This document shows, piece after piece, positions 1 to 62,492 of a stretch of 62,492 bases of DNA. The translations under genes and the position numbers were made by a program. The notes below the pieces were generated by a model. That model made no database searches. It had not been told where the DNA came from and saw only the letters and a program-made list of their open reading frames with translations. How positions within the stretch are numbered: position 1 is the first letter of the stretch; every line of letters begins with the position of its first letter. The stretch comes from Thermodesulfovibrio sp. (lineage in GTDB: Bacteria; Nitrospirota; Thermodesulfovibrionia; Thermodesulfovibrionales; UBA6898): NCBI GenBank assembly GCA_013824615.1, contig PNOC01000017.1, positions 1-62,492 of the forward strand, read 5' to 3'.

Positions 1-345
1 GACCGTTCCGGTGCTTACATAGCACGTTACATTGCAAAAAATATTGTTGCGGCCGGGATCGCAGACAGGGTTGAGGTTCAGCTTGCCTATGCTATCGGCA
101 TCCCCGAGCCGGTCTCGATTCTTGTCGATACCCACGAAACCGGGAGGATTGATGAGGAATTGATCGCGAAGCTTATCAGAAAGAACTTTGACCTTACGCC
201 CAAGGGCATCATCGACCACCTGAAACTCAGGCGGCCGATCTTTAAGAAGACTGCCGCTTACGGGCACTTCGGAAAGAACGACCCTGATTTCACCTGGGAG
301 CTGACCGACAAGGCTGCAGCGCTGAAGAAGGAAGCAGGGCTCTAG
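1..345 (+). CDS. metK: S-adenosylmethionine synthetase, C-terminal part (5' end outside window)
   Basis: The frame is open from the first base and ends at TAG 343-345, giving the last 114 residues. The segment contains the MetK C-terminal signatures [28 protein letters not shown] and [10 protein letters not shown], which belong to the C-terminal domain of the enzyme that makes SAM from methionine and ATP in the cytoplasm. The gene directly downstream is ahcY, so the two belong to the same methyl cycle. They are separated by a riboswitch that senses SAH, the by-product of SAM use. Only the start is missing; there is no sign of damage. Confidence 0.95.
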
Positions 346-356
346 GAAATTTAACT

Positions 357-464
357 CCACCCCGTCGAGGGGCGCTGCAGCAGTCGCCGCAAGGTGTGTC
401 TGCCAGGCTCGATGGGGTGGTTCAAATGCAGCAACGGCGCCCATTCACAATCTGAATGGGAGGA
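357..464 (+). promoter_or_regulatory. SAH (S-adenosylhomocysteine) riboswitch controlling ahcY
   Basis: This region contains the conserved blocks of the SAH aptamer in order: CGAGGGGCGCTGC (366-378), GCCAGGCTCG (402-411), TTCAAA (421-426) and AACGGCGCCC (433-442). P1 is a 13-bp helix, 357-369 with 408-420. The pseudoknot pairs GGGCGC 370-375 with GCGCCC 437-442. The expression platform is visible: CCCATTCA 440-447 can instead pair with TGAATGGG 453-460, which would bury the Shine-Dalgarno GGGAGG (458-463). Bases 440-442 cannot be in both helices. Bound SAH should therefore free the ribosome site and switch ahcY on, as known for this riboswitch class. Confidence 0.95.
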
Positions 465-469
465 ATTTT

Positions 470-1879
470 ATGACTACTGCAATGGCTACGAAAGACTACG
501 TTGTCGCTGACATCAAACTGGCTGATTGGGGCCGCAAGGAGATCGCCATCGCTGAAACCGAAATGCCCGGTCTGATGGCGATCCGCGAAGAGTTCGCCAG
601 GAGCCAGCCGCTCAAGGGCGCGCGCATCACTGGTTCGCTGCATATGACCATCCAGACCGCCGTGCTGATCGAGACGCTGAAGGCGCTCGGCGCGGAGGTC
701 CGCTGGGCCTCGTGCAACATCTTCTCCACCCAGGACCACGCTGCCGCATCTATCGCTGCAGGCGGAACCCCGGTCTTCGCCGTGAAGGGCGAATCGCTCG
801 AGGACTACTGGGACTACACGCACCGCATCTTCGAATGGGCCGACGGCGGCTATTCCAACATGATCCTCGACGACGGCGGCGACGCCACGCTGCTGCTGCA
901 CCTGGGTGCACGGGCCGAGAAGGACATTAAGGTGCTCGACAAGCCCGACAGCGAGGAAGCGACCGTGTTGTTCGCCAGTATCAAGGACAAGCTCAAGCAG
1001 GACCCGACGTGGTATTCAACGCGCATAGCGAAGATCAAGGGAGTTACCGAGGAGACCACGACGGGCGTGCACCGGCTGTATCAGATGCACGAGAAGGGCG
1101 AGCTCAAGTTCCCGGCGATCAACGTCAACGACTCGGTCACCAAGTCCAAGTTCGACAACCTCTACGGCTGCCGTGAATCGCTGGTTGACGGCATCAAGCG
1201 CGCCACCGACGTCATGATTGCCGGCAAGGTCGCGTTGATCTGCGGCTACGGCGACGTGGGTAAAGGATCGGCGCAGGCCATGCGCGCCCTCTCGGCCCAG
1301 GTCTGGGTCACGGAGATTGACCCGATCTGCGCGCTGCAGGCGGCGATGGAAGGCTACCGCGTCGTGACCATGGACTACGCCTGCGACAAGGCCGACATCT
1401 TCGTCACCTGCACAGGCAACGTCCACGTAATCGACCATCAGCACCTGGTGAAGATGAAGGACCAGGCCATCGTTTGCAATATCGGCCATTTCGACTCCGA
1501 AATCAACGTGGCGTCTCTCGAGAAATACCAGTGGGAAGAGATCAAGCCGCAGGTCGACCATATCATCTTCCCGGACAAGAAACGCATCATCCTGCTGGCC
1601 AAAGGCCGTTTGGTGAACCTCGGTTGTGGCACCGGCCACCCGTCATACGTGATGTCATCCTCCTTCGCCAACCAGACCATCGCCCAGATTGAACTGTTCA
1701 CGCAGGCCCAAAAGTACCCGGTCGGCGTGTACACCCTGCCGAAGCACCTGGACGAAAAGGTTGCGCGTCTGCAACTGAAGAAGCTCAACGTGCAGCTGTC
1801 CACACTGACTGATCAGCAGGCAGCCTATATCGGCGTGCCGAAGGAAGGTCCGTACAAGTCGGCACACTACCGCTACTGA
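470..1879 (+). CDS. ahcY: S-adenosylhomocysteine hydrolase
   Basis: Encodes 469 aa. The enzyme reversibly splits S-adenosylhomocysteine into adenosine and homocysteine, relieving product inhibition of methyltransferases. Visible signatures are [15 protein letters not shown], the STQDHAAAS active-site stretch, the NAD-binding [12 protein letters not shown] motif, and the C-terminal KSAHYRY tail that reaches into the neighbouring subunit. The length fits the long bacterial form, which carries an insert of about 40 residues. ATG 470 follows GGGAGGA at good spacing. The gene is more GC-rich at third positions than its neighbours and looks beta/gammaproteobacterial; together with its riboswitch it may have been acquired as a unit (inference). 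A terminator follows at 2005-2036. Confidence 0.97.
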
Positions 1880-6893: not shown

Positions 6894-8390
6894 GTGTCAT
6901 ATGCCCTGCTCTTTTCTGTCTTTGTAATATCGACCTGCGGTCTCGTTTATGAGCTGACTGCAGGTGCGCTGGCGAGCTATCTGCTTGGGGATTCGGTCAC
7001 CCAGTTCTCGATTATTATCGGCGTCTACCTGTCCGCCATGGGGCTGGGTTCCTATCTTTCCAAATATATCGTCAAAAATATTATTGCGGTCTTTATTGAG
7101 ATTGAACTGATTATCGGACTGGTGGGCGGGTGCTCAGCAGCTGTGCTGTTTTCACTTTTTGAGGTGACAGCCCATTTCAGGCCTCTGCTCTACTCTCTTA
7201 TAGGGGTGACCGGGGTGCTGGTAGGACTGGAAATCCCCCTTATCATGCGGGTGCTTAAGAACAAGTTTGAGTTCAAGGACCTTGTCTCGAAAATATTCAC
7301 GTTTGATTATATCGGTGCCCTGTTTGCCTCCCTGCTTTTTCCCATTATTCTCGTCCCCCACCTGGGTTTGATCAGGGCCTCGTTCCTGTTCGGCATCATC
7401 AATGTTCTGGTGGCCCTCTGGGCACTCCACCTGTTTAAAAAAGAGGTCCCGCAACCCCGGGCGCTTGCGCTGGCAGGGGTCATTTTGCTGGTACTCCTGC
7501 TGGCAGGAGTTGTTTATTCCGGAAATATTACGGAGTTTACCGAGACCCTTGCCTATAAGGGCAGCATCATTTTTGCCAAGACAACCAAATACCAGCGGTT
7601 GGTCATCACCCGCGAGGAGGAGAGTCTGCAGCTCCACCTGAACGGCAATCTGCAGTTCAATTCGCGTGATGAATACCGTTACCATGAGGCCTTGGTGCAT
7701 CCCGGTCTGCAGTCGCTTGAAGCTCCCAAAGAGGTTTTGGTACTCGGTGGCGGCGACGGTCTGGCGGTCAGGGAGATCCTGAAATACAATTCAGTGAACG
7801 CGGTTACCCTTGTCGACCTCGATGCGGATATTACAAAACTCTTTCAGAAACATGAGATGCTTGTTGCCTTGAACAAAAACGCTCTGAATTCTTCAAAGGT
7901 CAGGGTCATCAATGCCGATGCCTTTATCTGGATGAAAGGAAACACCCGGCAGTATGACTTCATTGTGGTTGACTTTCCCGACCCGTCCAACTTCTCACTC
8001 GGAAAATTATATACCAATACCTTTTACCGGCTGCTGGGCAGGGCGCTGAGCGATGACGGGGTTATGGTCATCCAGAGCACCTCCCCGTTTGTGGCGAGAC
8101 GGTCTTTCTGGTGCGTGGTGAATACCCTGAAATCAGTGGGGTTTATAACAACTCCGTATCATGTGTATCTGCCGTCTTTCGGGGACTGGGGATATGTCAT
8201 TGCCTCGAAAAAGGAGTTCTCCATGCCTGATACATTTATGTCCGGGCTAAAGTTCATCACGCCTGATACGGCCAGGGGGATGACCGGATTTCCTCCGGAC
8301 ATGGCGCAGGTTGATGCCGATGTCAACAGGCTGAATAATCAGGTATTGGTAAGATATTTTGAGGAGGAGTGGTCCCGCGTTGTCCACTGA
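6894..8390 (+). CDS. Membrane-anchored spermidine synthase-like protein
   Basis: Encodes 498 aa. The N-terminal part (about 1-210) is hydrophobic with six or seven membrane helices. The C-terminal part is a polyamine-synthase/Rossmann methyltransferase-like domain: GGGDGLAVREIL binds the nucleoside cofactor, TLVDLD follows strand 2, and VVDFPDPSNFSLGKLYT contains the catalytic Asp region. Related enzymes transfer an aminopropyl group from decarboxylated SAM. No SAM decarboxylase gene is in the operon, so the donor could differ (inference). The start is GTG 6894 with no clear Shine-Dalgarno. The FAD oxidase start overlaps the end of this gene. Confidence 0.8.
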   Translation: MSYALLFSVFVISTCGLVYELTAGALASYLLGDSVTQFSIIIGVYLSAMGLGSYLSKYIVKNIIAVFIEIELIIGLVGGCSAAVLFSLFEVTAHFRPLLYSLIGVTGVLVGLEIPLIMRVLKNKFEFKDLVSKIFTFDYIGALFASLLFPIILVPHLGLIRASFLFGIINVLVALWALHLFKKEVPQPRALALAGVILLVLLLAGVVYSGNITEFTETLAYKGSIIFAKTTKYQRLVITREEESLQLHLNGNLQFNSRDEYRYHEALVHPGLQSLEAPKEVLVLGGGDGLAVREILKYNSVNAVTLVDLDADITKLFQKHEMLVALNKNALNSSKVRVINADAFIWMKGNTRQYDFIVVDFPDPSNFSLGKLYTNTFYRLLGRALSDDGVMVIQSTSPFVARRSFWCVVNTLKSVGFITTPYHVYLPSFGDWGYVIASKKEFSMPDTFMSGLKFITPDTARGMTGFPPDMAQVDADVNRLNNQVLVRYFEEEWSRVVH

Positions 8391-10065
8391 CAGGAAAGGG
8401 CCGGTGCTGAGCCGCCGTACTTTTCTCCAGAAGAGTCTTATCAAGGGTGCGCTTCTGACGGTCTCGGCGGCGGGTTTGACAACCTGCAGGGGAGGCCCGC
8501 CCGGCCAGATGGGGAAATCCGGCGTTGTGAATAAATACCGTGGCGGCATAGCAGGCTCGAACTGGAAAGCAGGGCATATGCTGCTGCAGCACGGGCCTCT
8601 TACTCCGACAGAGACAGAAAAGACCGGCATTATTATTGTCGGCGGCGGCATAGCAGGGCTCTCGGCAGCACGCGAAATATCAAAAAAGCAGTTCAAGGAT
8701 TTTCTGGTCCTGGAACTTGAAGAAAAGGCCGGCGGCAATGCGATAAGCGGTGCCAATGCCGTTTCCCCCTACCCGTGGGGGGCGCACTACATACCCATCC
8801 CTTCTGAAGAGGCTACCTTTACAAGAGAGCTATTCGAGGAACTGGGGGTTATCGAAGGGTACAACAGCAGGGGGCTTCCCCTCTACAATGAGTATTATCT
8901 CTGCTCAGACCCCCACGAACGGCTTTTTATCCATGGCAGGTGGCAGGAGGGGCTCATACCTCATTTGGGAATATCAGAAGATGACAGGCGGCAGCATGCA
9001 GAGTTCTTCAGTGCCATGGAGCAGTTCAGGAGGGCGCGGGGCAACGACGGCAGACGTGCCTTTGCGATCCCGCTGGAGCTGAGCTCCCGGGACAGCAGAT
9101 TCCGCAGCTATGATACTCTCAGTATGAGCAGGTTCATGGCTGACAGCGGCTGGAATTCTGAACCGCTCCGGTGGTATGTGAACTACTGCTGCCGTGATGA
9201 CTATGGCACTCGCCTTGAGGAGACATCTGCCTGGGCCGGCATTCATTACTTTGCATCGCGCAATGGCCGCGCGGCCAATGCCGACTCCCCTTCAGTGTTG
9301 ACCTGGCCGGAAGGGCTCGGGTGGATTGTCGGAAAACTGGGAGAAACCATGAGCGGCAATATCCGTGGTCAGGCCTGTGTGCTGAATATAGAAGCAACAG
9401 GCAATGAGGTAGCTGTAGATTATTACGATATACCCCGTGGAAAAGTGGTGAGGGTCCTCGCCGGGACGGTTATTTATGCTGCACCCAGGTTCACCGCGTT
9501 CAAAACAATAAAGTCCTTCAGGGATAAGCTGCCGGCCTATGCAGATTGCTTCGGATATACCCCCTGGATGGTCGCAAATGTGACGATGAAAGGTCAGCCT
9601 GAGGGTGTAGGGACGGACCTTTCATGGGACAATGTGAGCTACTATAATGATTCGCTCGGCTATATCGTGGCGAATCACCAGTCCCTGGCCCGTCATCGGG
9701 AGAAGACAGTGCTTACCTGTTATTTTCCTCTTACTGCCGGAGAGCCCCCGGCAGAGCGGCAGAAGGCTCTGAAACGTACTTATGATGAATGGTCAGCCAT
9801 GGTCGTTCAGGACCTATCCCGGATGCATCCCGGGATCGAAAAGAGCATCGAAGAAGTGAATGTCTGGATCTGGGGCCACGCGATGATACGACCGATGCCC
9901 GGATTGATATGGGGCAGGGCGAGGCAGGAGGCTATGAAGCCTCTTGAAAAGATCCATTTCGCCCACTCCGACATGAGCGGTATCTCGATCTTCGAAGAGG
10001 CCCAGTACCGGGGCATTATGGCTGCAAGGGCGGCGCTGCGAGAATTTACAGGGAACAATTCATAA
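8380..10065 (+). CDS. Tat-exported FAD-dependent amine oxidase-like protein
   Basis: I prefer TTG 8380, which lies 10 bases after GAGGAGGAG and overlaps the synthase stop by 11 bases; this gives 561 aa. A twin-arginine signal (SRRTFLQK, residues 11-18, then a hydrophobic stretch) marks export of the folded protein. The FAD-binding dinucleotide fold follows (IIIVGGGIAGLSAAREI, about 84-100), with VLELEEKAGGNA binding the ribose and adenine. The C-terminal SGISIFEEAQYRGIMAA resembles the FAD-contact region of flavin amine oxidases and phytoene-desaturase-type enzymes. It is the last gene of the SPFH-polyamine operon, and oxidation of a polyamine-like product outside the membrane is an attractive but unproven role. 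Confidence 0.75.
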   Translation: MSTDRKGPVLSRRTFLQKSLIKGALLTVSAAGLTTCRGGPPGQMGKSGVVNKYRGGIAGSNWKAGHMLLQHGPLTPTETEKTGIIIVGGGIAGLSAAREISKKQFKDFLVLELEEKAGGNAISGANAVSPYPWGAHYIPIPSEEATFTRELFEELGVIEGYNSRGLPLYNEYYLCSDPHERLFIHGRWQEGLIPHLGISEDDRRQHAEFFSAMEQFRRARGNDGRRAFAIPLELSSRDSRFRSYDTLSMSRFMADSGWNSEPLRWYVNYCCRDDYGTRLEETSAWAGIHYFASRNGRAANADSPSVLTWPEGLGWIVGKLGETMSGNIRGQACVLNIEATGNEVAVDYYDIPRGKVVRVLAGTVIYAAPRFTAFKTIKSFRDKLPAYADCFGYTPWMVANVTMKGQPEGVGTDLSWDNVSYYNDSLGYIVANHQSLARHREKTVLTCYFPLTAGEPPAERQKALKRTYDEWSAMVVQDLSRMHPGIEKSIEEVNVWIWGHAMIRPMPGLIWGRARQEAMKPLEKIHFAHSDMSGISIFEEAQYRGIMAARAALREFTGNNS

Positions 10066-57439: not shown

Positions 57440-57469
57440 TTGACAAACGTATTCTCTTTCGTTTTAAAT
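57440..57469 (+). promoter_or_regulatory. Promoter of first cobalamin-riboswitch operon
   Basis: A perfect -35 TTGACA (57440-57445) is followed after 18 bp by TTAAAT (57464-57469). The riboswitch aptamer begins about 8 bp further, as expected for a leader RNA. Confidence 0.65.
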
Positions 57470-57476
57470 TAAATTA

Positions 57477-57747
57477 ACTTTCAGGTGCCGCAAGGCATAA
57501 GAGGGAATCCCGTGAGGAGCAATCCAAACCGGGAGCGGTCCCGCCGCTGTAACCGGGACGAAAGCCGAAATGCCACTGTCTGCGCAAACAGACGGGAAGG
57601 CCGGTGAGTAGGATGAACCGGGAGCCAGAAGACCTGCCTGAATGATTCGTATCCGATCGTTACAAGTACCTTCCCGCGGATGGGAGGTGAGGATGAAGCA
57701 AACAGGGTGCAATCCTCAAGGCATTTAATGTCTTGAGGTTTTTTTTT
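57477..57747 (+). promoter_or_regulatory. Cobalamin riboswitch with terminator expression platform
   Basis: The class signatures are all present: P1 strands TTCAGG (57480-57485) and CCTGAA (57637-57642), the core GAGGGAATCC, the highly conserved GGTCCCGCCGCTGTAACCGGGACG (57538-57561), then GCCACTG, GGGAAGGC and the B12-box end AGCCAGAAGACCTGCC. Between aptamer and gene a GC-rich stretch precedes the terminator at 57714-57747. Adenosylcobalamin binding should favour termination, so the operon is repressed when B12 is plentiful. Confidence 0.96.
57714..57747 (+). terminator. Riboswitch-controlled terminator
   Basis: CCTCAAG (57714-57720) pairs with CTTGAGG (57732-57738). The stem extends inward through GCAT/ATGT to a 3-nt loop, followed by nine T (57739-57747). 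It lies 29 bp before the methyltransferase start. Confidence 0.9.
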
Positions 57748-57776
57748 GCAAACAGGATAGGAACAAATAAACGATC

Positions 57777-59345
57777 ATGACGAGACAGACCACATTCTCT
57801 TTACCTGATCCGCAGGATAGCTCTCCCCAGTATCTTGAAGATCTCGCAACCGGCTACTGGTATTCCGATATGCTCTTTGCCGCTGTTGAGCTAGATATTT
57901 TTACGTTCCTTGGAGAAGACGGCAAGTTGCCCGATGAGCTGGCTGAAAGCCTTGATATGGGAGGGGAAGGGCTTTCCCGTTTTCTCCATGCCCTCACGAC
58001 CATTGGCCTTATAGTGAAACACGGAGACAGATACTGCAATACTTCCGTTGCGAATCAATACCTTGTTTCCGGTAAACAGGAATATTGGGGCGACTCGATC
58101 TTATGGAGAAAAGAGCTTTCGCAGAACTGGAAAACGCTTATCCCCAGTCTTAAGTCCGGAGGCAGGATCGGATACGGCCCCGTAAGTGGCAAGGAAGTTG
58201 AAGACCCCGCAGTGCGGATGAATCGCATCACACGGTATACCGATGCCATGGCCTGTTGTGCCAGGGTGAAGGCCCGTGAGATGATGCCTTTTTTTGAGGG
58301 GCTTGACATCAGCGGCGATCTGCTCGATATCGGGTCGGGATCAGGGGCACTTGCCACGGTTTTCCTCGATCGTTTTCCATTGCTTAAAGCCTGCCTCGTT
58401 GATCTCCCGGAGGTACTCGGGATCTCTGAAAAAAGGATGCAGGAGGAAGGTCTTGCAGCAAGGACGTCCTTTGTGCCTGCAAATGTCCTTGAGGCATGGC
58501 CCCTTGGAGAGGCCCGGTATGACGTCATCATGCTTTCGAATATCGTCCATGCCTTCTCCGAGGCAGAACTTCCTCATCTGATTGCCCAGGCTGCGGCACA
58601 CCTGAAACAGGAAGGGCTTCTGATTATCCACGATTTTTTCCTCGATCATTTTTCGTCCAAGGCTGCACTCTTTGATCTCAATATGTTCATCAACACATAT
58701 AACGGAAGGGTTTTTCGTTCTTCTGTGGTGGAGAAGAAATTATCAGAAGAAAGCCTGCTTCATACGGGCTTGCTTCCGCTGAAGACTGATACTGCAGTTA
58801 TTATCAGTGCGCGCAATCCTGATATACTCTCACGCCTCAGTCTGGACTCAACGCAGCTTCTCATATCGAGGATACGTCACATGGGGTTTTCAGACTGCAG
58901 GCTGATTTCTGCGGAGCAGATCACTGTTTCAGAGTGGCCGGAACTCAAATGCAGATTCGGCTGTAGTTACTACGGAAGTCCCCATTGCCCTCCGCATGCC
59001 CCTCAACCAGAGCATACACGGAAGGTTATATCTGGCTACCGTACCGCTCTTATCATTCAGGGGGAACCCCCGACACGGGACTTCCAGCGCGGGGTGCTGC
59101 AGGCAGAGCGGGAGGCGTTTCTCCTTGGGTTTCACCGGGCTCTTGCTTACTGGGCCGGCCCCTGCACCCTCTGCAAGACTTGTGAAACCGATAAAAACTG
59201 CTGCAACAGAAAAGACGCACGCCCCTCGATGGAAGGCGCAGGCATCGATGTCTATGAGACCGTCAGAGCAGCCGGCTTATCGCTAAGAACACTCGCTGAC
59301 AAGACCGACTTTGTAAAATATTTCGGTCTTCTTCTTATCGAATGA
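57777..59345 (+). CDS. bzaC: SAM-dependent methyltransferase fused to DUF2284; candidate BzaC
   Basis: Encodes 522 aa. The N-terminal part (about 15-95) is the winged-helix dimerisation domain of class I O-methyltransferases of the BchU/hydroxyindole type. The methyltransferase domain has LLDIGSGSGALATVFL (SAM loop) and AHLKQEGLLIIHDFF. The last 150 residues are a DUF2284 metal-binding domain rich in cysteine (CRFGCSYYGSPHCPPHAP, CTLCKTC, NCCNRK). Control by a cobalamin riboswitch and two B12-type radical SAM genes behind it fit the anaerobic benzimidazole pathway, in which BzaC methylates 5-hydroxybenzimidazole. The assignment is by context; another cobalamin-repressed methylation is possible. 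Confidence 0.6.
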   Translation: MTRQTTFSLPDPQDSSPQYLEDLATGYWYSDMLFAAVELDIFTFLGEDGKLPDELAESLDMGGEGLSRFLHALTTIGLIVKHGDRYCNTSVANQYLVSGKQEYWGDSILWRKELSQNWKTLIPSLKSGGRIGYGPVSGKEVEDPAVRMNRITRYTDAMACCARVKAREMMPFFEGLDISGDLLDIGSGSGALATVFLDRFPLLKACLVDLPEVLGISEKRMQEEGLAARTSFVPANVLEAWPLGEARYDVIMLSNIVHAFSEAELPHLIAQAAAHLKQEGLLIIHDFFLDHFSSKAALFDLNMFINTYNGRVFRSSVVEKKLSEESLLHTGLLPLKTDTAVIISARNPDILSRLSLDSTQLLISRIRHMGFSDCRLISAEQITVSEWPELKCRFGCSYYGSPHCPPHAPQPEHTRKVISGYRTALIIQGEPPTRDFQRGVLQAEREAFLLGFHRALAYWAGPCTLCKTCETDKNCCNRKDARPSMEGAGIDVYETVRAAGLSLRTLADKTDFVKYFGLLLIE

Positions 59346-59372
59346 GCCAATGAAGGAGCCGATGAAAATACG

Positions 59373-60695
59373 ATGCGTATACTTCTGATACAATCGCTGT
59401 CCGTAGAAGGTATGAGTGCGGAGAAGGTATATCCGATCGGCCTCGTCTCACTTGCCGGTCTGATTACAAGGCCGGAAAATGAGGTTGCACTCATAGACCT
59501 GAACATACACCCTGATCCCTTTCGGGCCCTAAGGGAGAAGCTGGTCGAGTTCAATCCTGACGTCGCGGGGATTTCTCTCAGAAATATCGATCCCCTCGGC
59601 AATAAGGCCTCGTCGCTCATCCCTCCTTTTGTCGCTGTCGTCCGCATGGTAGCGACCATCTGTCCGAGGACGCGTATCATTGCAGGTGGAACCGGTTTTT
59701 CGCTCTTTCCCGAGCGCCTGATGCTTGAACTCCCGGAGATCAGCTATGGCATTATCGGCGAGGCCGAAGAATCCTTTCCGGCCCTGATCGCTTCACTTGA
59801 TAATCCGCCGTCTCTGAAAGGTCTCTGCAGACGAAAGGGAGACGGGATTATCATAACGCCGCCGTCCCGCGAATACGACATGGCACATTACGAAGCACCC
59901 GATCGCACGCTGCTTGATCCGGCGCAATACCTTGACATCAACACCTATGTCCCGGCAATCGGTATTGAAACAAAGCGGGGCTGTCCGTATAAGTGCGCCT
60001 ACTGTGTCTATCCCAAGCTCCAGGGAACGAAGCTGCGGTGCAGACTGCCACATTCGGTTGTGGACGAAATGGAATCCCTCCATAAGGAATACGGCATCAA
60101 AAGCTTTCATTTCACCGATCCGGTGGTGAACATCCCCGGAGGGCACCTCGAAGATATCTGCAGAGAGATTCTCAGAAGAAAGCTGTTGATCCGCTGGGAT
60201 GGGTTCATGCGCGAAAACCTGCTGACTGGAAAAAATGTCTCACTGTATGTAAAGGCCGGTTGCGAATGTTTTTCTTTTTCACCCGACGGTTACTGCGGGG
60301 AGGCGCTCGAGATGCTCGGCAAAGGGATGGGAGAAGAGGATATTCTGAAAGCGGCCAGGTTAGTTTCAAAAACCGACGTTATTACGGTCTATCACTTTAT
60401 GGTGAACGTTCCCGGAGAGACGAAGGAGACCGCAGAAAAGGGCATTAAACTCTTCGACCGCCTGTATGATCTTCATGCTGCCAAACGGAACCTCGGTACG
60501 ATTGTGCTGAATAATATCAGGATACATCCCGGCACGCGGATTGAAGAAATTGCCCGAAGAGACGGCGTTATCGGCCCCAATACCGACCTTCTCTATCCAA
60601 CGTATTATAATCCGGCTCCCTTCGAATCGCTCCGGTATAAGCTCGAAACAATGCACTACCTCAGAAATATCTTTTCCTGGGAGGGACTGTCATGA
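59373..60695 (+). CDS. bzaD: B12-binding-type radical SAM protein; candidate BzaD
   Basis: Encodes 440 aa. The N-terminal part (about 1-140) is a B12-binding-like Rossmann domain (MRILLIQS, VALIDLNIHPD, IIAGGTGFSLFPE, IGEAEESFP) without the DxHxxG motif; this is usual for BchE-like radical SAM enzymes. The radical SAM core has C204, C208 and C211 in CPYKCAYC for the 4Fe-4S cluster. ATG 59373 follows AAGGAG. In bza operons BzaD and BzaE C-methylate the methoxybenzimidazole intermediates; which of the two genes here is which cannot be told from sequence alone. Confidence 0.6.
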   Translation: MRILLIQSLSVEGMSAEKVYPIGLVSLAGLITRPENEVALIDLNIHPDPFRALREKLVEFNPDVAGISLRNIDPLGNKASSLIPPFVAVVRMVATICPRTRIIAGGTGFSLFPERLMLELPEISYGIIGEAEESFPALIASLDNPPSLKGLCRRKGDGIIITPPSREYDMAHYEAPDRTLLDPAQYLDINTYVPAIGIETKRGCPYKCAYCVYPKLQGTKLRCRLPHSVVDEMESLHKEYGIKSFHFTDPVVNIPGGHLEDICREILRRKLLIRWDGFMRENLLTGKNVSLYVKAGCECFSFSPDGYCGEALEMLGKGMGEEDILKAARLVSKTDVITVYHFMVNVPGETKETAEKGIKLFDRLYDLHAAKRNLGTIVLNNIRIHPGTRIEEIARRDGVIGPNTDLLYPTYYNPAPFESLRYKLETMHYLRNIFSWEGLS

Positions 60696-62206
60696 AGATT
60701 GTTCTTCTGGAACATCCGCGCTCCATCACCGTGGAGCGGTGCAACGACATTGCAAATACGCCTCTTTCCTCATGTCTGCTTACCGGGTATGCCGGAGCTG
60801 TGCTGGCTAAAGAGGGGCACGAGGTCCGGATTATCGAAGGATACCTTGACCGACTTTCCTGGGATTCGATACATGAGACGATCCAGACTGCAAAACCCGA
60901 TATCCTCGGCGTGCATATGGTCTATCACTGGAAAGGTGACGAAGAGCTCTACCGGTTTCTTGGTGAACTCAGAGAAGAAGGCCTCGCACCTCTTATCATT
61001 GCGTATGGTTTTTACCCCACCATCTCACATGCGCAGATACTGGACGACTGCAGCTCTATTGACGCCGTAGTCGTTGGTGAACCGGAAGTGCCCTTCGCCA
61101 GCCTCGCTCGCTATCAGCAGGGGCAGGGCATTCTCCGACAGATACCGGGAATAGCAGCCCGCTCCGGTTCAGGGGATGTTGTCCTCATCCCCCAGAAGCC
61201 AGTTGCTGATCTTGACTCTATTCCTTTTCCGCTTAGGACAGAGGCACTCTACCGGATTGGCGAGGTGAATATCCTTGGCAGCAGAGGATGCTACGGCCGA
61301 TGCACCTTCTGTTATATCAACACCTTCTATGGCAAGGGAATGCCTTGGAGGTTCCGGAGCCCTGAAAATATTATTGCAGAGATTGACGCAATCATCCAGG
61401 AGCGCGGGGCACGGGATTTTTATTTTACCGACCCGAATTTTTTCGGTCCCGGACAGAGGGGACAGGAACGCGCGATGAAGATCGCAGAGCTTCTGAAGCC
61501 GCGCAACATACTCTTCGGCATTGAGGGCAGGGTCAATGACATCAGGGATGAGACGATTGAAGCTCTCGTCGAAGCTGGCCTCCGCCATATTCTCATCGGA
61601 CTCGAGAGCGGCAGGAACGAGGCGTTGCAGCGCATGAACAAAATGACAACGGTTGCAGAAAATGAGGAGGCCCTCAGGATTCTCAGAAAGCACGGCATCG
61701 AACCGAATGTCGGTTTTATTATGTTTGAGCCCGACTCAACGATCGAGGACCTCCGTACTAATTTTGAGTTTCTAAAACGGAATAATCTGCTCAAGAACCT
61801 TCCGGTAACCGCCAATGTTCTGTACCATCATCAGATCATCCTCGGTGGTACCGATGCCTATCATGAGCTCAGGAATACAGGCCGGCTGGAACTCTCTGCC
61901 TCTTCAGCCTATGAAGGCACTGCCTATTTTCAGAATGCTGCGGTTGCGGAGCTGGCAGCCATTATGCGGGAGATTACCAACTTCTTATTCAGCGTTATGG
62001 ACGGTATCTGGAGCGGGAAAACAATCTCGCCCCCCGGCTCACACGAGAAGTACCAGACAGTCAATCAGATACTTGTCGATGTTTTCGAACAGAGTCTCTC
62101 TACACTTGAGCAAGAAGGCCGGCTCAGCAATGAAGCACCAGCCTTGGTCCTGAGTCAGAGCAGGGAAAAGATCTCACTGCTAATTGGCGATAATCATGAG
62201 CACTGA
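60692..62206 (+). CDS. bzaE: B12-binding-type radical SAM protein; candidate BzaE
   Basis: Encodes 504 aa; ATG overlaps the previous stop (ATGA). The N-terminal B12-binding-like domain (about 1-140, HEVRIIEGYLDRLSWDSI, VVVGEPEVPFASL) precedes the radical SAM core with C200, C204 and C207 in CYGRCTFC, YFTDPNFFGPG and IGLESGRNEALQRM. The C-terminal helical region (about 400-504) is typical of BchE/methyltransferase-type members. As the third gene under a cobalamin riboswitch it most likely makes part of the B12 lower ligand. The operon ends here; a second riboswitch begins 70 bp later. Confidence 0.6.
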   Translation: MKIVLLEHPRSITVERCNDIANTPLSSCLLTGYAGAVLAKEGHEVRIIEGYLDRLSWDSIHETIQTAKPDILGVHMVYHWKGDEELYRFLGELREEGLAPLIIAYGFYPTISHAQILDDCSSIDAVVVGEPEVPFASLARYQQGQGILRQIPGIAARSGSGDVVLIPQKPVADLDSIPFPLRTEALYRIGEVNILGSRGCYGRCTFCYINTFYGKGMPWRFRSPENIIAEIDAIIQERGARDFYFTDPNFFGPGQRGQERAMKIAELLKPRNILFGIEGRVNDIRDETIEALVEAGLRHILIGLESGRNEALQRMNKMTTVAENEEALRILRKHGIEPNVGFIMFEPDSTIEDLRTNFEFLKRNNLLKNLPVTANVLYHHQIILGGTDAYHELRNTGRLELSASSAYEGTAYFQNAAVAELAAIMREITNFLFSVMDGIWSGKTISPPGSHEKYQTVNQILVDVFEQSLSTLEQEGRLSNEAPALVLSQSREKISLLIGDNHEH

Positions 62207-62238: not shown

Positions 62239-62268
62239 TTGACAAACTTTCAGAGCGTGTGTTTTTAT
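62239..62268 (+). promoter_or_regulatory. Promoter of second cobalamin-riboswitch operon
   Basis: TTGACA (62239-62244) is followed by an AT-rich TTTTAT (62263-62268) at 18 bp. The aptamer begins a few bases further, the same arrangement as at 57440. Confidence 0.55.
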
Positions 62269-62274
62269 TAGATT

Positions 62275-62492
62275 AACTTTCAGGTGCCGCAAGGCATAAG
62301 AGGGAATCCCGTGAGGAGTAATCCAAACCGGGAGCGGTCCCGCCGCTGTAACCGGGACGAAAGCCGAAACGCCACTATCTGCGCAAGCGGACGGGAAGGC
62401 CGGTGAGTAGGATGAACCGGGAGCCAGAAGACCTGCCTGAATGATTCGTATCCGAGTACGATATGGCTATACGCATTCGCCAATCGTCATAA
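62275..62492 (+). promoter_or_regulatory. Second cobalamin riboswitch (expression platform cut by window end)
   Basis: The aptamer (62275-62442) is complete and differs from the first copy at only about five positions, most of them in one hairpin (CTATCTGCGCAAGCGGACG here). Identity extends past the aptamer through GATTCGTATCCGA, then stops. The regulated gene lies beyond the window; a ThiC-like bza synthase, cobT or a cobalamin-transport gene would be expected. Confidence 0.95.

Follow-up and report, generated by a model that had tools for sequence, protein, structure and literature searches.

According to pathway summaries (PMC6461909, PMC8123684), BzaF makes 5-hydroxybenzimidazole from aminoimidazole ribotide, and differing sets of bza genes lead to differing benzimidazoles. 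The title of Mathur et al. 2020 (cited in PMC8123684) says that 5-hydroxybenzimidazole is activated and methylated by CobT and BzaC. Two described arrangements are closest to the locus presented here, namely the bzaA/bzaB-type operon as outlined in PMC8123684, and the bzaF-cobT type of Geobacter sulfurreducens, which makes the 5-hydroxybenzimidazole cobamide (PMC8123684). On the genes present, their order and orthology, the riboswitches and terminators, and the adjacency of the two contigs, all documented below, the locus constitutes, with a probability of roughly 0.93, the first half of an anaerobic cobalamin operon (bzaF-CDE) from an uncultured member of the Nitrospirota, which has two B12-repressed units and is cut in the assembly within the second riboswitch. 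The host is probably an oxygen-avoiding soil or sediment bacterium that builds the lower part of B12 with these genes, and uncultured Nitrospirota would then join the predicted anaerobic producers of true B12.

The window, i.e. the whole stretch of 62,492 nucleotides that was analysed, is the entire contig C17 of a 3.6 Mb genome in 96 contigs (completeness estimate 100%), and its end coincides with the contig end, inside the cobalamin riboswitch RS2. Three open reading frames, bzaC, bzaD and bzaE, are located on the forward strand between RS2 and a first cobalamin riboswitch, RS1 (Table 1). The initial annotation had read this region as bzaC, bzaD and bzaE under a cobalamin riboswitch, and the reading is borne out by the RF00174 matches, by TIGR04385 for BzaD, by the trees and by synteny in 49 named loci; the limits it gave, 57440-62206, are also correct, with TTGACA at the first position and the bzaE stop at the last. 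Both aptamers score about 75-83 bits above the RF00174 gathering score of 31.5.

Table 1. Features of the bza locus on C17, the synthase gene on C80 and the permease genes of Bacillota bza loci.
Feature	Position	Strand	Length	Basis and remarks
TTGACA, probable -35 box before RS1	57440..57445	+		Sequence; same placement before RS2 and in relatives
Cobalamin riboswitch aptamer 1 (RS1)	57466..57655	+		RF00174, 114.1 bits, E 7.4e-28, full length
Intrinsic terminator, RS1 expression platform	57714..57746	+		11-bp stem then T run; directly before bzaC
bzaC, SAM-dependent O-methyltransferase with C-terminal DUF2284	57777..59345	+	522 aa	PF08100/PF00891/PF10050
bzaD, B12-binding/radical SAM	59373..60695	+	440 aa	TIGR04385 equivalog, 682 bits vs cut-off 450
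bzaE, B12-binding/radical SAM	60692..62206	+	504 aa	Pfam, clade, synteny; start overlaps bzaD stop
TTGACA, probable -35 box before RS2	62239..62244	+		Conserved before RS2 in L040, L041, L043
Cobalamin riboswitch aptamer 2 (RS2)	62265..62454	+		RF00174, 106.6 bits, E 1.1e-25, full length; terminator on C80
Linker from RS2 aptamer to terminator; C17 end	62455..62492	+		Junction alignment vs L040
bzaF (probable)	C80 (locus L008) 116-1420			ThiC-family search, clade, context; begins downstream of RS2 terminator
NCS1-type permease	L052 140-1546			PF02133
NCS1-type permease	L056 3425-4768			PF02133
NCS1-type permease	L066 639-1997			PF02133
NCS1-type permease	L068 3466-4818			PF02133
NCS1-type permease	L085 3606-4961			PF02133

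TTGACA is found at about equal distance before both aptamers, which suggests two promoters, one for the bzaCDE unit and another for the bzaF-cob unit. A promoter scanner reported no full promoter in the region upstream of RS1, where the -10 region does not show the consensus, and a consensus -10 box was found for neither unit. The two aptamers of the window are 96% identical to each other, and the corresponding pairs in the relatives L040 and L041 are 93% and 95% identical, whereas the aptamers of the window and of L041, which belong to different genera, share 75-77%. The paired riboswitches are thus more alike within a genome than between genera, which appears to be a mark of concerted evolution or of repeated recombination at the riboswitch. 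The genome has further riboswitches. One of the SAH type is located at 361-449 of the window, just before an adenosylhomocysteinase-like reading frame (470-1879), and two more cobalamin riboswitches are found on contig C18 (L007 10266-16602) near genes for a btuB-like receptor, btuF-like and btuC-like proteins and an ABC ATPase, together with a second cobC-like phosphatase; the C18 genes may provide B12 uptake alongside de novo synthesis.

Between the end of the RS2 aptamer and the end of C17 there are 38 bases with no terminator, and contig C80 (13.6 kb) opens with a terminator matching that of RS1 but without an aptamer. A search for an exact overlap between the ends of C17 and C80 gave none, and the join was therefore checked against the relative L040, where a single contig carries RS1-bzaC-bzaD-bzaE-RS2-bzaF-cobU-cobT-cobS-cobC-cobQ-cbiB-cobD-cbiA unbroken. 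The end of C17 and the start of C80 align to it without a gap, such that base 1 of C80 abuts position 62492. The adjacency is deduced by comparison with L040 and from a single riboswitch divided over both contig ends rather than from reads, and the assembly probably broke at RS2 because the two aptamers are so nearly identical. Since C80 with bzaF-cobU-cobT abuts C17, and the cluster of L040 is unbroken, the lack of a linked ThiC-type synthase, with which the initial annotation had headed its entry, is an artefact of the contig edge, whereas it was right to propose that bzaF and cobT might come after the second riboswitch, both being located on C80 directly after RS2. A false lead, a B12-ligand pathway supposedly without its first enzyme, is hereby removed, and the near-identical riboswitch pair provides an example of an assembly split exactly within an operon.

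The genes on C80 are arranged as bzaF-cobU-cobT-cobS-cobC-cobQ-cbiB-cobD-cbiA, followed by CbiX/CbiC-like, cbiM, cbiQ, cbiO and cobA-like genes, and cobT matches TIGR03160 with 459 bits (cut-off 319). The genome encodes two ThiC-family proteins with 46% identity, one on C80 and another on C14 beside thiE- and thiG-like genes, as read from their translations; a ThiC paralogue and cobT, the absence of which the initial annotation had regarded as contrary evidence, are thus both present. TIGR00190 (thiC) gives 576 bits for the C80 synthase against a cut-off of 460, and thiC HMMs alone would name it ThiC; BzaF and ThiC are not told apart by the NCBI thiC models, an NCBIfam scan of the protein reported no BzaF model, and the PDB, searched by sequence for a BzaF structure, gave ThiC entries only. 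In a ThiC-family tree of 35 rows, with the ThiC matches of related genomes left out, it falls among the ThiC paralogues that occur singly in bza loci (SH-aLRT 100), in a clade separate from the BzaA-like (first-of-pair) and BzaB-like (second-of-pair) clades. Its homologues in 61 related genomes fall into two separate identity bands, 72-96% and 44-51%, and the gap indicates the same division as the tree. Judged by clade, context and the separate thiC rather than against a biochemically tested reference, the protein is probably a BzaF. BluB, the aerobic DMB synthase, was rejected on score, the best match to TIGR02476 in the genome reaching 92 bits against a cut-off of 150 and none passing; with no BluB above the cut-off and with CbiD found in the genome, the gene content fits the anaerobic route.

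The activities of the bza and cob enzymes and the product are predicted from the known bza pathway. BzaF would convert aminoimidazole ribotide to 5-hydroxybenzimidazole, which CobT would join to ribose phosphate; BzaC would O-methylate the CobT-activated base, and BzaD and BzaE, as B12-dependent radical SAM enzymes, should add the remaining methylations giving 5,6-dimethylbenzimidazole (DMB), with CobU and CobS expected to perform the final steps to cobalamin. Each half is preceded by its own cobalamin riboswitch and intrinsic terminator, a layout from which both units should be OFF when B12 is plentiful.

The named-genome scan with BzaE gave the 49 loci, including Moorella, Eubacterium, Pseudoramibacter, Desulfocucumis and many Nitrospirota. 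bzaC and bzaD are found on the same stretch as bzaE, in the order bzaC-bzaD-bzaE, in 41 of them, and nearly all loci with enough sequence show this order, with two Moorella loci lacking bzaD. Linked synthases come as a tandem ThiC-like pair in Bacillota and in one Desulfobacteraceae, and as a single ThiC-like protein in Nitrospirota and Actinomycetota. Among the 61 related genomes, 26, the present one included, have a bzaF-type gene of the high-identity band, and a cobalamin riboswitch is located upstream of bzaF in 16 of the 20 loci scanned; bzaD (above cut-off) and bzaE are confined to one and the same set of six genomes, and the bzaCDE cassette is present in only 6 of the 26 with bzaF. RS2-bzaF-cob seems to be the common unit, with RS1-bzaCDE as an optional cassette, which may turn a maker of 5-hydroxybenzimidazole cobamide into a maker of cobalamin; as most of the bzaF genomes examined are without bzaCDE, close relatives may make different cobamides. 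In one family member (G017, L091 2833-3874) parts of a group II intron separate bzaF from the cobalamin riboswitch.

In five Bacillota loci without linked bzaA/bzaB an NCS1-type permease gene precedes cobT-bzaC-bzaD-bzaE, with cobS before cobT in two of the five and the permease gene after a cobalamin riboswitch in four. Two of these loci, L056 and L066 (Syntrophaceticus schinkii), belong to genomes that have CbiD and for which no ThiC-family protein was shown, in assemblies that may be incomplete, which suggests that these organisms import a benzimidazole and then tailor it. In S. schinkii Sp3, bzaC is broken into two reading frames (L066 3285-4830), with matches to group II introns further along at 7713 and 9519-9949. 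In Moorella thermoacetica and M. stamsii (L082 8302-11515, L049 8427-11509) an intact bzaE comes directly after bzaC, with no bzaD; this contrasts with a review giving the M. thermoacetica operon as bzaA-bzaB-cobT-bzaC, with 5-methoxybenzimidazole cobamide as the product.

The permease loci bear on the possibility that the window carries a bzaCDE unit of its own, without a linked ThiC-type synthase, by which an imported benzimidazole is tailored. Nothing ThiC-like is present within 57440-62206, and the riboswitch-permease-cobT-bzaCDE operons of L056 and L066 appear to be of this kind, but the gapless abutment of the bzaF-cobU-cobT contig and the whole cluster of L040 make this very improbable. 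That the methyltransferase and the radical SAM pair instead serve the modification of bacteriochlorophyll or hopanoids, as BchE, BchU, HpnJ and HpnR do, is scarcely credible. The superfamilies are the same, and BzaE, having no curated model of its own, finds its top curated match in BchE with 114 bits; these identities, a placement with which the initial annotation had named as contrary evidence, were nevertheless rejected at scores far under the cut-offs of these models (BchE 104-114 against 481, BchU 46 against 276, HpnJ 61-89 against 578 and HpnR 60-77 against 650). BzaD forms a single clade with Eubacterium (SH-aLRT 100) and BzaE with Eubacterium and Moorella (SH-aLRT 96), the Eubacterium references being bza-operon proteins of E. 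barkeri/aggregans. Both clades stand apart from 24 further B12 radical SAM proteins, of which some are long-branched. Synteny with bza operons, the cobalamin riboswitch and the cob genes also speak against such a role.

A third reading accepts the bza operon but not DMB as its product, which would be, for instance, a 5-methoxy- or 5-methoxy-6-methyl-benzimidazolyl cobamide, with one tailoring enzyme inactive or an intermediate captured by CobT/CobS. The variation of the benzimidazole with the bza gene set (PMC6461909, PMC8123684) and the Moorella loci with bzaC and bzaE but no bzaD are in its favor; in the present locus, however, all of bzaC, bzaD and bzaE are intact and conserved together, and the radical SAM motif CxxxCxxC is kept in both BzaD and BzaE, so that this outcome is unlikely. 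The bzaF-CDE operon leading to DMB is the preferred reading.

BzaC has a dimerization domain (Pfam) at its N-terminus and a DUF2284 at about residues 376-521 (window 58902-59339). The 39 orthologues aligned from bza loci show 37-81% identity to the window protein; DUF2284 is present on every BzaC with a complete frame, and seven cysteines (392, 396, 404, 463, 466, 469 and 475 in the window protein) are invariant in all 39. O-methyltransferase chemistry does not explain this cysteine domain, and the two papers found that mention DUF2284 do not, going by title and abstract, deal with bza. A fold search with full-length BzaC gave methyltransferases only, and DUF2284 was therefore folded separately (pLDDT 81.5, the first cysteine loop being of low confidence). 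The best solved neighbors of the model are QueG, a reductive dehalogenase, nitroreductases, MMACHC and BluB, with weak matches (Foldseek E 0.04, TM 0.48; VIA Z of at most 7.7) in a range where the shared arrangement is common, and the likeness is a lead for function and not a result. It is a doubtful but conceivable idea that BzaC is two-part, with DUF2284 as a corrinoid- and iron-sulfur-binding redox domain of nitroreductase-like fold (as in QueG, reductive dehalogenases and MMACHC) that couples cobamide chemistry, or the reactivation of B12 in BzaD/BzaE, to the tailoring of the lower ligand. The cysteine-rich BzaC tail and the permease-bearing Bacillota operons are testable leads.

With the bzaA/bzaB-type operon the locus has in common its orthologous BzaC, BzaD and BzaE, their order and the linkage to cobT, and cobalamin riboswitches also precede several of the Bacillota bza loci tested. 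It differs in that one BzaF-type synthase replaces the BzaA/BzaB pair, that bzaCDE precedes the synthase with a second riboswitch between them, and that a long cob operon is attached. The bzaF-cobT type of G. sulfurreducens, likened here by its description, likewise has a single ThiC paralogue by cob genes; bzaC, bzaD and bzaE are present in the Nitrospirota locus in addition, so the predicted product is DMB, unlike in the Geobacter type. A close counterpart is L040 (Nitrospiraceae palsa_1316, PLXX01000137), with the same gene order, both riboswitches, and BzaE and BzaF 89% and 96% identical, which differs from the window in being unbroken across RS2. The system belongs to the known bza kind, with a two-riboswitch arrangement.
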